From: Oscillospiraceae bacterium
GTDB lineage: Bacteria > Bacillota > Clostridia > Oscillospirales > Oscillospiraceae
Direction: 5' to 3'
DNA: 64,000 nucleotides
NCBI GenBank assembly: GCA_015067495.1
Contig: SVMI01000009.1
Coordinates: forward strand, 1 to 64,000
A program made the position numbers and the translations under genes. Positions 9,437 to 48,035 of this stretch are shown one piece after another (position 1 is the first letter of the stretch; every line of letters starts with the position of its first letter). The notes under the pieces are model-generated. The model saw only the letters and a program-made list of their open reading frames with translations. It was not told the origin of the DNA and made no database searches.

Positions 9437-9748
9437 TCAGCCTTCGAAATCCGTGGGATCTGCAACAGCCTCTTCGGCAGCTTCTGCTTCCGCAGGAGCT
9501 TCCTCGATCGCTTCTGCATCGCAGGGGCAATCAGACTCGCAGTCACATTCGCACTCACAGTTGTCGCAATCGCCTTCGCAATCGCACTCGCAGTCGCAAT
9601 CGCAGCAGCAATCACAGCTGCACAGACCACCAAAGGTCTTCTTAAACCATGCAACAATACGGTCGCCGTACTTGACGATCACAAAAACAAGACCGGCAAC
9701 AGCGGCAAGCGCAACGAGAATCTTCCAAATAACATTCCATGCCTTCAT
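9437..9748 (-). CDS. Small membrane-anchored Cys/Asp/Glu-rich protein, function unknown
   Basis: 103 residues. Residues about 6-26 form one transmembrane helix (VIWKILVALAAVAGLVFVIV), followed by a basic segment ending in WFKKTFG. From about residue 42 comes a tract with 16 cysteines in some 35 residues, mostly CD and CE dipeptides (for example CDCECDCEGDC), then a Glu/Ala-rich tail. The ATG has a clear AAGGAGG site and a TTGCAT-N17-TATACT promoter, so it looks like a real, expressed gene despite its low complexity. Metal binding or thiol chemistry at the membrane is possible inference only. The basic segment suggests the Cys tract is cytosolic by the positive-inside rule. I recognise no family. 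Confidence 0.75.
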   Translation of the reverse strand: MKAWNVIWKILVALAAVAGLVFVIVKYGDRIVAWFKKTFGGLCSCDCCCDCDCECDCEGDCDNCECECDCESDCPCDAEAIEEAPAEAEAAEEAVADPTDFEG

Positions 9749-23449: not shown

Positions 23450-25437
23450 GCATTCGTGTAGCGGAAAGTGCCGGCTTTTGCTTCGGCGTCAACCGCGCCG
23501 TAGAAACGGTGGAGAAGGCGGCAGGGCAGGGAAGTCGGGTGGTGACCCTCGGTCCGATCATCCACAACCGTCATGTCGTGGAGCATTTTGATAAAATGGG
23601 CGTGTCGGTCATTGACAGCCCGGAGCAGGCACAGCCGGGCATGACGGTCATCATCCGTTCTCACGGCGTATCAAGAGCGGTCTGCGAAGCCCTTGAAAAG
23701 CGGGGCGTACAGATCGTGGATGCCACTTGTCCCTTTGTCAAGCGGATCCATGGAATTGTTGAAAAGGCAGAGCTATCCGGTCAGCTTCCCATCATTATCG
23801 GCACCCGCACCCACCCGGAGGTGGAGGGAATTGCGGGCTGGTGCAGTAATTGCCGGGTCTTTGAAACTCCCGAGGAGCTGGAAAACTGGGCACTCAGTGG
23901 TGAAATTTCGTGCGATTTGCCCATATGCATGGTCAGTCAGACCACCTCCACAGAAGCATTATGGAAAAAAAGTGTCCAAATCGCAAAAAAACAGTTTACT
24001 AACGTAAAAATATTTGATACAATATGCAGAGCAACAGAATTTCGGCAGAGGGAAGCGGCGGATTTAAGCGCTTCCAGTCAGGCTATGGTGGTTGTTGGCG
24101 ACGCGAAAAGCTCCAACACCGGTCGTCTGGCGATGATCTGTCGGGAACACTGTCAGAAGGTGGTGCTGGTGGACAATGCGTCCGAACTGCAGCCTGAACT
24201 GTTTGACGGTGTTACAAATGTCGGAATCACTGCCGGTGCTTCTACACCGGCGTGGATAATAAAGGAGGTCAATAAGACTATGAGCGAAATTATCAATGCT
24301 GATGCTGTGCAGGAGGAAAACTTCGAGCAACTCCTCGAGCAGTCCATCAAGACTTTAAATACAGGAGATAAGGTCATTGGTACCGTTACCGCTATTGGCA
24401 ACACCGAGATCCAGGTCGATCTGGGAACCAAGCACGCCGGCTACATTCCCTACGACGAAGTCAGCGCCGATCCTTCTGTGAAGCCTGAGGACATTCTCCA
24501 TGTAGGCGACGAGATCGAAGTGTTCGTCGTCCGCGTCAACGATCAGGAAGGCACTGTGCAGCTTTCCAAGAAGAAGCTGGACGGCCTGAAGATTTGGGAC
24601 GACATCGCTTCTTATGTAGAGGACAAGACCACTGTTGAGGGTGTTGTCACCGAAGAGAACAAGGGTGGTCTGGTTGTTACCATCAAGGGCATCCGCGTCT
24701 TCATCCCCGCTTCCCAGTCCGGCGTTGCCAAGGGTGGCGACATGTCCGCTATGCTGGGTCAGACCGTGCAGCTGAAGATCACGGAAGTCAACCGCGCACG
24801 CCGCCGTGTTATCGGCTCTATCCGCGCTGTCAACTCTGAGAACCGCAAGGCTTCTCAGGAGAAGCTGTGGGCAGAGATCGAAGAGGGCAAGAAGTATCAC
24901 GGTGTCGTGAAGTCCCTGACTTCTTACGGCGCATTCGTTGATATCGGTGGTGTCGACGGCATGGTTCACGTTTCCGAGCTGAGCTGGAACCGCATCAAGA
25001 CCCCCGCAGAGGTTGTCAGTGTTGGCGATGAGATCGACGTTTACGTCATCTCCTTCGACGCTGAAAAGCGCAAGATCTCTCTGGGCTACAAGACCGCTGA
25101 GATGAACCCCTGGAATCAGTTCATGACCGGCTACAATGTCGGTGATGTCGTGGATGTCAAGATCGTCAAGATGATGACCTTCGGCGCATTCGCAGAGATC
25201 ATTCCCGGTGTTGACGGTCTGATCCACATCTCCCAGATCGCTGACCGCCGCATCGCAAAGCCCGAGGACGTTCTGGCTGAGGGTCAGGTCGTTCAGGCTA
25301 AGATCACCGATGTGGACGCAGAGAACAAGCGCATCTCCCTGTCCATCCGCGCCCTGATCGAGCCTGCTGCAGAAGAAACTGCAGAAGAGGTCGTTGAAGA
25401 GGCTGCAGAGGAAGTCGCTGAAGAAGCTGCTGAATAA
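23446..25437 (+). CDS. ispH-rpsA: Fused 4-hydroxy-3-methylbut-2-enyl diphosphate reductase / ribosomal protein S1
   Basis: 663 residues. Residues 1 to about 278 are IspH, the [4Fe-4S] enzyme making IPP and DMAPP in the last MEP-pathway step; cluster Cys are in AGFCFGV, DATCPFV and DTICRAT. From residue 279 (MSEIINADAV) come four S1 RNA-binding repeats: GDKVIGTVTAIG, TVEGVVTEENKGG, YHGVVKSLTSYGAFVDIG and VVDVKIVKMMTFGAFAEI, then a Glu-rich tail. Such fusions are known in Clostridia. Here the junction keeps an AAAGGAGG and an in-frame ATG at 24280, and an AT-rich promoter-like stretch lies inside the ispH part, so S1 may also be made alone (385 residues). Confidence 0.95.
   Translation: MSIRVAESAGFCFGVNRAVETVEKAAGQGSRVVTLGPIIHNRHVVEHFDKMGVSVIDSPEQAQPGMTVIIRSHGVSRAVCEALEKRGVQIVDATCPFVKRIHGIVEKAELSGQLPIIIGTRTHPEVEGIAGWCSNCRVFETPEELENWALSGEISCDLPICMVSQTTSTEALWKKSVQIAKKQFTNVKIFDTICRATEFRQREAADLSASSQAMVVVGDAKSSNTGRLAMICREHCQKVVLVDNASELQPELFDGVTNVGITAGASTPAWIIKEVNKTMSEIINADAVQEENFEQLLEQSIKTLNTGDKVIGTVTAIGNTEIQVDLGTKHAGYIPYDEVSADPSVKPEDILHVGDEIEVFVVRVNDQEGTVQLSKKKLDGLKIWDDIASYVEDKTTVEGVVTEENKGGLVVTIKGIRVFIPASQSGVAKGGDMSAMLGQTVQLKITEVNRARRRVIGSIRAVNSENRKASQEKLWAEIEEGKKYHGVVKSLTSYGAFVDIGGVDGMVHVSELSWNRIKTPAEVVSVGDEIDVYVISFDAEKRKISLGYKTAEMNPWNQFMTGYNVGDVVDVKIVKMMTFGAFAEIIPGVDGLIHISQIADRRIAKPEDVLAEGQVVQAKITDVDAENKRISLSIRALIEPAAEETAEEVVEEAAEEVAEEAAE
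23995..24023 (+). promoter_or_regulatory. Candidate internal promoter for the S1 part of ispH-rpsA
   Basis: TTTACT (23995-24000), exactly 17 bp, TACAAT (24018-24023), inside the ispH coding part. The surrounding codons switch to AAA, ATA, ACA and AGA, unlike the AAG/ATC/CGC use on both sides. Confidence 0.6.
24261..24282 (+). promoter_or_regulatory. Internal ribosome-binding site and ATG of the S1 part
   Basis: AAAGGAGG (24261-24268), 11 nt, then an in-frame ATG at 24280 that begins the S1 N-terminus MSEIIN. This is one of the strongest Shine-Dalgarno sites in the window. Confidence 0.75.
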
Positions 25438-45624: not shown

Positions 45625-45701
45625 GGAGGCTTAGCTCAGCTGGTTAGAGCGCATGCTTCACACGCATGAGGTCACAGGTTCGAGTCCCGTAGTCTCCACC
45701 A
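45625..45701 (+). tRNA. tRNA-Val (anticodon CAC), CCA encoded
   Basis: 77 nt. The acceptor stem GGAGGCT / AGTCTCC has one G-U pair, the D arm is GCTC / GAGC, the anticodon stem CATGC / GCATG encloses loop TTCACAC (anticodon CAC, reading GTG), and the T loop is TTCGAGT. The T stem ACAGG / CCCGT has an A-C mismatch at its third pair. The 3' CCA is encoded. It has a consensus promoter and a strong terminator 5 bp downstream, followed by repeats of its own 3' end. Confidence 0.95.
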
Positions 45702-45705
45702 AAAA

Positions 45706-45734
45706 GACACCACCCAATGGGTGGTGTCTTTTTT
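45706..45734 (+). terminator. Terminator of tRNA-Val
   Basis: GACACCACCC-AAT-GGGTGGTGTC, 10-bp perfect stem, then TTTTTT. The left arm sequence recurs in the hairpin at 46075-46105. Confidence 0.93.
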
Positions 45735-45763
45735 GGTGGAGAAATAAGGAAGGGACTCGAACC
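45734..45763 (-). repeat. Inverted, diverged copy of the tRNA-Val 3' end
   Basis: TGGTGGAGA (45734-45742) and GGGACTCGAACC (45752-45763) are exact reverse complements of the 3' terminus and T arm of the tRNA. The 9 bp between them differ. Confidence 0.7.
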
Positions 45764-45772
45764 GATTTAGAT

Positions 45773-45850
45773 GCAATATGCCGGTGGCATATTGCTGCCA
45801 CCAGTTCAAAAACTGGTGGCTACTTTAATTTTTGCCGCATGGGGCAAAAA
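45773..45850. repeat. Three consecutive perfect hairpins between the inverted tRNA-end and the tandem array
   Basis: GCAATATGCC-GGT-GGCATATTGC (45773-45795), GCCACCAGTT-CAAA-AACTGGTGGC (45797-45820) and TTTTTGCC / GGCAAAAA (45829-45836, 45843-45850). No gene is evident; each looks like a structured or terminator-like element. Confidence 0.7.
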
Positions 45851-46074
45851 TGCAAATCGAGTCCCGTAGTCTCCAGCGCCGCAAGGCGCAAAAGGAGACG
45901 GAGAGCAAAGGGAAGTGCAAATCGAGTCCCGTAGTCTCCAGCGCCGCAAGGCGCAAAAGGAGATGGAGAGTAAAGGGAAGTGCAAATCGAGTCCCGTAGT
46001 CTCCAGCGCCGCAAGGCGCAAAAGGAGACGGAGAGCAAAGGGAAGTGCAAATCGAGTCCCGTAGTCTCCAGCGC
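45851..46074 (+). repeat. 65-bp tandem array carrying tRNA-Val 3'-end sequence (three full units plus a partial fourth)
   Basis: Units start at 45851, 45916, 45981 and 46046, an exact 65-bp period. Each unit contains the 19-bp core TCGAGTCCCGTAGTCTCCA, identical to tRNA-Val 45680-45698, including the C that makes the tRNA T-stem mismatch. After the core an inner stem GCGCC / GGCGC closed by GCAA is nested in an outer stem GTCTCC / GGAGAC; unit 2 has GGAGAT, a G-U change that keeps the pairing. All three minus-strand frames stay open through it only because the repeat lacks stops; I do not call these coding. Confidence 0.95.
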
Positions 46075-46105
46075 AAATGACACCACCCATCGGATGGTGT
46101 CATTT
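46075..46105. terminator. Terminator closing the tRNA-repeat region, shared with sfsA
   Basis: AAATGACACCACCC / GGATGGTGTCATTT with one mismatch and an ATC loop. Its GACACCACCC arm is the same as in the tRNA terminator, so the repeat region lies between two related hairpins. It abuts the sfsA stop. Confidence 0.8.
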
Positions 46106-46106
46106 G

Positions 46107-47835: not shown

Positions 47836-47848
47836 TTCCATATCTAGG

Positions 47849-47989
47849 TGAACTATGCCTACTCCACAAAATAGTCATCGTTCACCCAAAAAGGAGGAAA
47901 ACAACCGCAGGCTCGCGGTGCGGCAGTGTGGAGACCTGTCGCAATACAGATGTCACATTTTACGGGCATCTGTGAGAGCATGTACGAGG
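47849..47989 (+). promoter_or_regulatory. Long structured leader of msmK
   Basis: The 261-bp gap before msmK holds GGTGAAC ... GTTCACC (arms about 26 nt apart), an isolated AAGGAGG (about 47890) with no usable start after it, and ACAGATG ... CATCTGT (47947-47973). I recognise no known riboswitch. The features suggest an RNA leader that could respond to sugar state. Confidence 0.4.
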
Positions 47990-47996
47990 AGTCGTC

Positions 47997-48035
47997 ATGC
48001 TTAGAGTCAGTACATTATGGCAAACGTATCTCTGA
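47997..48035 (+). CDS. Short upstream ORF overlapping the msmK start
   Basis: ATG at 47997 with GAGGAG 5 nt upstream, 12 codons ([12 protein letters not shown]) and a TGA ending at 48035. It overlaps the first 19 nt of msmK in another frame. msmK itself has no visible ribosome-binding site, so ribosomes finishing or crossing this ORF may start msmK by coupling. It is too short for homology; existence as a peptide is unproven. Confidence 0.45.

Follow-up and report, generated by a model that had tools for sequence, protein, structure and literature searches.

The closest described systems are the tRNA-linked repeats (TLRs) of Escherichia coli, a group that includes the tyrT/tyrV repeats (Rfam RF00391, RtT) and the rrA/B/F sRNA genes. 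According to PMC8144298, these repeats were first seen in 1978 and were in 2021 still without known function. The same paper counts 22 of them at ten loci, one to five at each, and gives their 3' end as 18-19 bp identical to the 3' end of the upstream tRNA or rRNA. It also describes three TLRs behind rRNA operons that yield sRNAs between two terminators, and two small RNAs from trailers of stable RNA genes, RrB and 3'ETS-leuZ, of which RrB lies between two terminators. The locus analysed here resembles the E. coli TLRs of PMC8144298 in its place directly behind a tRNA (or 5S) gene, in its 18-19 bp copy of the 3' end, in a hairpin core common to different tRNAs, in the occurrence of tandem copies and in a position that is sometimes between two terminators. 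Like 3'ETS-leuZ and RrB, a putative RNA from the locus would come from the trailer of a stable RNA gene. The locus is very probably a TLR-type element. Its right end is locally amplified in tandem, and the TLR that carries this amplification is of a new sort, belonging to the order of its genome (Oscillospirales).

The locus lies between tRNA-Val(CAC) and sfsA in a 64,000-nt stretch of an Oscillospiraceae genome, referred to as the window. From left to right, the tRNA and a terminator are followed by an inverted copy of the tRNA 3' end, then by the hairpin core and last by a direct copy of the same 3' end. The features are as follows:

45625..45701, plus strand: tRNA-Val(CAC) gene, source of both arms (ARAGORN; Rfam RF00005, 65.5 bits)
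45702..45734, plus strand: first terminator-like hairpin with a T run (from the sequence; GACACCACCC at 45706-45715)
45735..45763, plus strand: left arm, a partly diverged copy of the tRNA 3' end in inverted orientation (read from the sequence; base-paired to the first right arm in the predicted fold)
45764..45856, plus strand: class 1 core (covariance model match at 45750-45864, 119.5 bits, E 9.9e-29, from a model in which this copy is one of the 27)
45773..45795, plus strand: core hairpin 1, with a CC-NGN-GG loop (fold, sequence and covariation)
45797..45820, plus strand: core hairpin 2 (fold, sequence and covariation)
45829..45850, plus strand: core hairpin 3 (fold, sequence and covariation)
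45857..45875, plus strand: right arm, a direct 19-nt copy of the tRNA 3' end that starts in the T-loop (exact match count)
45851..46074, plus strand: 65-bp tandem array of the right end, made of right arm plus GCAA-loop hairpin (TRF)
46075..46106, plus strand: second terminator-like hairpin, sharing GACACCACCC with the first (from the sequence; GACACCACCC at 46079)

The 19-mer TCGAGTCCCGTAGTCTCCA is present in five exact copies in the window, one at 45680 within the tRNA and four at 45857, 45922, 45987 and 46052. The last four are spaced exactly 65 bp apart, as an earlier sequence-only reading of this DNA had described, and the repeat did not arise in any of 100 shuffles of the window. The array reported by TRF (45851-46074) has a period of 65, 3.4 copies and 97% matches; its units 1 and 3 are identical, and unit 2 bears two C-to-T changes. 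The same reading had described an inverted, diverged copy of the tRNA tail directly after the gene, three hairpins and a final hairpin that reuses tRNA-terminator sequence, and each was recovered at the positions listed above. The A-C mismatch that it placed in the T stem of tRNA-Val(CAC) is present as A51-C63 (read from the sequence), and left-arm positions 45752-45763 (GGGACTCGAACC) are the exact complement of tRNA positions 52-63. A single 65-nt unit folds with the GCAA-loop hairpin proposed for it (z -3.5; 1 of 200 shuffles equally good). The left arm, core and first right arm together form a closed multi-branch fold of -59.8 kcal/mol (z -9.0; 0 of 200 shuffles). The best-folding unit is left arm, core and right arm, not the 65-bp repeat. 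The array was dropped as the basic unit, since a genome search found it in one place only of its own genome and a wider query found a dispersed element. This one dispersed element comprises the three hairpins together with the inverted copy before them and the first direct copy after them; the 65-bp array is a local duplication or amplification of its right end, probably a recent one.

The search with the window region found pieces behind other tRNAs, and a covariance model of the class 1 core (R1) was built from 27 aligned copies. In the three class 1 hairpins, 94.9% of cells are paired and 125 cells are changed on both sides, compared with 27.8 in shuffles and 18-24 in slid versions. The helices change almost only on both sides together, and this covariation of the core supports the idea of a structured element that the sequence-only reading had offered. 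R1 matched at least 50 of 61 sampled genomes of the genus (E up to 0.001), with up to 25 matches in one genome. The window's own genome holds 23 matches (E up to 0.1), three of which are antisense matches on other copies, and genomes G054 and G059 hold 21 and 14. Genome counts for R1, and for the second model R2 described below, are lower bounds, as stricter filters were applied and few candidates were scored per genome. It is the element, then, that recurs among relatives and at other tRNA genes, where the earlier reading had suggested searching for the 65-bp unit. The named relatives are Oscillospiraceae metagenome assemblies, mostly from goat, with one each from cattle and yak gut. Rfam gave no family for the core in the window or in 11 relatives at E 0.5.

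From 246 aligned class 1 matches, the best 184 (36 bits and up) were retained, leaving 181 after repeats were removed; 18 of these come from other genera of the family, and part of the stretches that hold the 181 copies was taken from the strongest genus-wide R1 matches. Whole-element tandem copies are commoner in this set than right-end arrays, and four tandem copies each are found in stretches L207 and L229. A tandem array near the right end is present in 3 of the 181 copies, and the window's alone is built of right-arm units.

The distance to a tRNA or tmRNA gene upstream on the same strand is 40-60 nt for 114 of the 181 distinct class 1 copies, and the neighbours of these 114 comprise 28 tRNA kinds and tmRNA. 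No copy lies at 61-100 nt, 20 lie at 101-400 nt and 9 further away, and 38 have no called tRNA on the stretch (9 of these had less than 120 nt of upstream sequence). In sum, 67 copies are without a tRNA within 100 nt upstream on the stretch examined. Those looked at, which are part of that set, include second tandem copies, copies at contig ends and copies separated from the tRNA by an insertion. A tRNA on the opposite strand within 100 nt downstream was found for none of the 181. Because some other stretches were found with a query that contained a tRNA, stretches chosen by R1 alone were counted separately, and 66 of the 103 copies on them are adjacent to a tRNA.

Both arms follow the neighbouring gene. 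Among the 114 adjacent copies, the right arm matches its own tRNA exactly over a median of 19 nt, as against a mean of 5.5 nt for tRNAs of other identity, and the own tRNA is strictly the best match in 92. The inverted left arm matches over 13 nt (6.8 for other tRNAs), and here the own tRNA is strictly best in only 40 of the 114 because T-arms are alike. In 87 of 97 copies the first tRNA position matched by the right arm is T55 or C56, and in 76 of 112 the left match ends at 51-54. Across 1110 arm positions in 111 copies (three of the 114 were skipped), 973 equal the tRNA on both arms, 108 differ on the left arm only, 22 on the right arm only and 7 on both. The view that the repeats derive from this tRNA gene or were converted by it is upheld as far as the arms are concerned. 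The arms of tRNA-Val(CAC) copies follow the T-stem allele of their own species in most species, and the right arm of the copy in L007 keeps another T-stem allele. Another tRNA fits better by at least 3 nt for 11 of the 114 right arms, several of them by decay, and two Leu copies bear the right arm of their genome's other Leu isoacceptor, as recombination between tRNA loci would give. The right arm reaches CCA in 60 of the 114 copies, and the sequence that follows resembles the first terminator in 13 of these 60.

The cores are distributed in a different manner from the arms. For 29 of the 114 copies the nearest core belongs to the same genome (4.3 in shuffles, maximum 14), and for 15 it stands behind a tRNA of the same kind (4.3 in shuffles, maximum 13). 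In genome G021, the copies at His, Gly and Asp share cores that are 90-94% alike and differ in their arms, and in G002 the same holds for the copies at Ser, tmRNA, Gln and Arg (87-98% for the pairs listed). The arms are thus tied to the neighbouring tRNA, and one genome can have similar cores beside several of its tRNAs. Together with the recurrence behind 28 tRNA kinds and tmRNA, where the arms fit the respective gene, this supports a tRNA-templated mobile repeat, one of the options offered by the sequence-only reading.

A second core class emerged from weak R1 matches in other families (E about 1e-4), many of which lie close behind tRNAs and have matching arms and a shorter core. An origin of these matches by chance was rejected; they are largely a class 2 core, for which model R2 was built from 15 copies. 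In this class 38 cells are changed on both sides, as against 9.8 in shuffles, and the core has invariant unpaired bases. R2 matched at least 88 of 394 sampled genomes of the order, from 44 of 168 genera, and across the phylum at least 2 of 398 sampled genomes, both from the window's own family. The class 2 set consists of 61 matches, of which 54 are distinct and were used for adjacency: 38 follow a tRNA (15 kinds) at 65 nt or less, 10 at 66-400 nt and 1 at a greater distance, and 5 have no tRNA. The class 2 right arm matches over a median of 19 nt, and the own tRNA is strictly the best match in 30. Genomes G564, G407 and G336, which represent two genera, have class 2 copies at two slots of the same Gly-Arg-His-Gln-Lys tRNA operon, one following Arg and the other Gln, and operon slots common to two genera speak for long retention. 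Class 2 copies within tRNA operons have a short plain linker, and this weakens the idea that the left arm must have arisen from a long snap-back palindrome running through the terminator. Tandem class 2 copies are found in L135/L302. L087, L089 and L118 have yet another form of the core (AGGGCGTTAAG..GCCCGTGGGAGAGTC) that seems to be related to class 2; its right arm pairs with the left arm and is only partly a tRNA copy.

For a direct comparison with E. coli K-12, 13 stretches were taken and 45 tRNA/5S genes on 11 of them were examined. Close behind 12 of the 45 lies a repeat of the gene's final 19 nt, with at least 15 of 19 matching, and the cores of these 12 copies are much alike. Seven of the 12 carry an inverted left arm that matches at 9-10 of 10 nt; four of the seven are the similar lysT, W, Y and Z copies, and the match at another of them, tyrT, was reached by 19 of 500 shuffles. 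At lysV, lysQ and proK, inverted matches of 13, 13 and 9 nt lie elsewhere in the region. Among rRNA TLRs, rrnB only was taken, and the 15-of-19 rule did not flag rrfB. The elements described here differ from the E. coli repeats in that the right arm starts at 55-56 rather than at about 58-59, and in the presence of 28 tRNA kinds plus tmRNA and of two core classes. By covariance model their core is unrelated to the E. coli cores: against the 11 E. coli stretches R2 gave no match at E 10, and the best R1 match had E 0.68. RtT was not listed for the window or 11 relatives at E 0.5, its gathering score not being reached; as a positive control, it was found at the E. coli tyr, pro and lys loci and not at the arg locus. 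The right arm is a 3'-end copy with a median of 19 nt (19 nt in the window), and there are several loci with one to five copies; in the own genome 12 of the 44 tRNA genes and the tmRNA gene carry a copy of one class or the other. In these respects the new elements fall under the TLR definition, to which transcription with the tRNA or rRNA also belongs. They do not belong to the RtT sequence family. Their newness rests on Rfam and on a literature search in which TLRs by name were covered for E. coli only, and in which no direct precedent for tRNA-adjacent repeats of this kind was found.

A large independent set behind 28 tRNA kinds, with two covarying core classes, makes the TLR, so far a curiosity, comparable across genomes. 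Arms, core, boundaries and spread become statistically testable, and the T-loop emerges as the hinge. It is conceivable, though we would put it forward only as a conjecture, that TLRs are a general class of tRNA-targeted hairpin elements with at least two origins (gammaproteobacteria and the order of this genome), whose cores are unrelated, whose landing site is the universal T-loop and in which inverted and direct copies of the joined tRNA tail are rebuilt.

We propose that the core moves between tRNA loci by recombination or by replication template switching at the T-loop. As the T-loop sequence is nearly universal (TTCGA, often the palindrome TTCGAA), a copy that reaches a new tRNA could be joined to it in either orientation. 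The repeated arms would then be kept alike by slippage and conversion between them, which could also produce tandem arrays such as the 65-bp one, and the element may be carried as a largely neutral or semi-selfish trailer that is transcribed by read-through. Spread at the T-loop by recombination or template switching is a tentative proposal, favoured here over a trailer RNA, over attachment-site scars, for which the case is weak, and over spread by a transposase or reverse transcriptase, which is disfavoured. The combination of a TLR-type element, spread at the T-loop and a largely neutral trailer is, taken whole, probably the best explanation. Weighing against this explanation are the 67 copies that lack a tRNA within 100 nt upstream, the left arms, for which the own tRNA is strictly best in only 40 of 114, the 11 right arms that fit another tRNA better, and the likeness to the first terminator after only 13 of 60 right arms. 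The same operon slots in two genera speak a little against a purely neutral trailer, and together with the conserved unpaired core bases they point to a function or a recognising factor, which junk would not need.

Such a function is at the centre of a rather unlikely alternative, in which the element is a domain of the pre-tRNA trailer RNA. The left arm would pair with the 3' half of the tRNA or with the right arm, and the core, perhaps with a bound factor, would decide between folding and processing of the tRNA and release of the trailer as a small RNA. The strong covariation of both classes (125 against 27.8 and 38 against 9.8), the invariant unpaired bases of class 2 and the shared operon slots in G564, G407 and G336 fit this account, for which RrB, a processed sRNA from between the two rrnB terminators (PMC8144298), is a precedent. 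It is harder to reconcile with the patchy occurrence across species (under the stricter filters, 11 of the 61 sampled genomes of the genus lacked a class 1 match), with up to four tandem copies and with left-arm changes that are mostly uncompensated, 31 of the 108 left-only changes being GU-compatible and 3 changes being shared. Pair composition bears on both sides. In hairpin 1, counted in the 169 of 181 copies with at least 5 of 8 pairs, GU exceeds AC by 11 to 1 of 1351 cells, yet GU is rarer there than in tRNA acceptor stems (67 GU and 1 AC of 1330). T stems have 96 and 3 of 945, terminators 21 and 3 of 1026, and all helices of the model alignments together 79 and 48. This balance leans slightly towards a transcribed strand and is less RNA-like than that of tRNA stems.

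An origin as scars of integrative elements, in which the direct copies would be att sites left by integrases acting at the T-loop or the 3' end of the tRNA and the array would be serial att duplication, is improbable. Serial attachment-site duplication had been among the earlier suggestions, and the boundary in the T-loop does fit it; the inverted arm, the conserved and covarying core and the 28 tRNA kinds with their own copies are left unexplained. A serine recombinase gene (PF07508, PF13408) lies just upstream of four tRNA-less copies (L054, L101, L108 and L220), and one copy stands beside the end of a phage-like contig in tRNA-Lys (L285), both of which would suit such scars. Against them, the core pattern was found in only 2 viral contigs, and a class 2 copy had no match in phage and plasmid collections. 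With the window region as query, the matches listed from these collections (best 20 of 169 and best 20 of 176) were tRNA matches. By eye, the last codons of the L054 serine recombinase run through the tRNA-Arg-like GTGTACCA end. In L285 (9766-10130), the end of a viral contig that encodes an amidase (PF01520) carries a partial tRNA-Lys and a class 1 element.

REP/REPIN elements, which have RAYT transposases, are likewise short palindromic dispersed repeats, and a hairpin-rich dispersed repeat with an inverted copy might suggest that a Y1 transposase or a reverse transcriptase spreads it, in the manner of REPs or retro-elements. Unlike REP/REPIN, the elements here are tRNA-bound and have arms copied from the tRNA. 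Neither Y1 transposase (PF01797) nor reverse transcriptase (PF00078) was found in the window's genome (G000, 97% complete), in G054 or in G059; among the 61 genus genomes the former is present in 33 and the latter in 30. Both enzymes are therefore disfavoured as drivers, and spread of this sort is very improbable. A merely recent slippage or assembly artefact of the 65-bp unit, to which the nearly identical units and the single occurrence of the array, the sole one of its kind among 181 copies, could be attributed, is very improbable, as it would apply to the array at most, is ruled out for the element itself by recurrence in 50 of 61 genus genomes, and meets a second right-end array with a different short unit, seen by eye in L285.

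Another dispersed repeat was encountered beside these elements. Rfam Gut-1 (RF01706) matched at L095:1280-1354 and in L258, from the own genome, and has matches in 31 of 61 genus genomes, up to 30 in one, many of them as antisense neighbours. It looks like a dispersed palindromic repeat of the genus; one copy stands between tRNA-Gln and its class 1 element. Gut-1 RNA was set aside as part of the element system, as it looks like a separate repeat, and a literature search on Gut-1 returned nothing. Downstream of the array in the window, sfsA (PF03749; 46107-46781, minus strand) faces the array, and by eye sfsA is also next after tRNA-Val(CAC) in L012, L025 and L028. Across three separate species the gap between tRNA-Val and sfsA differs, being 230 with the element and 78 and 135 without it. 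A malK-I RNA (RF03069, 132.9 bits) at 47844-48022 directly precedes an ABC transporter ATPase-like ORF at 48017. Elsewhere in the window, short tandem arrays of the TCGCAA and GAAGAAGCTGCA types are present at 9519-9617 and 25366-25434.
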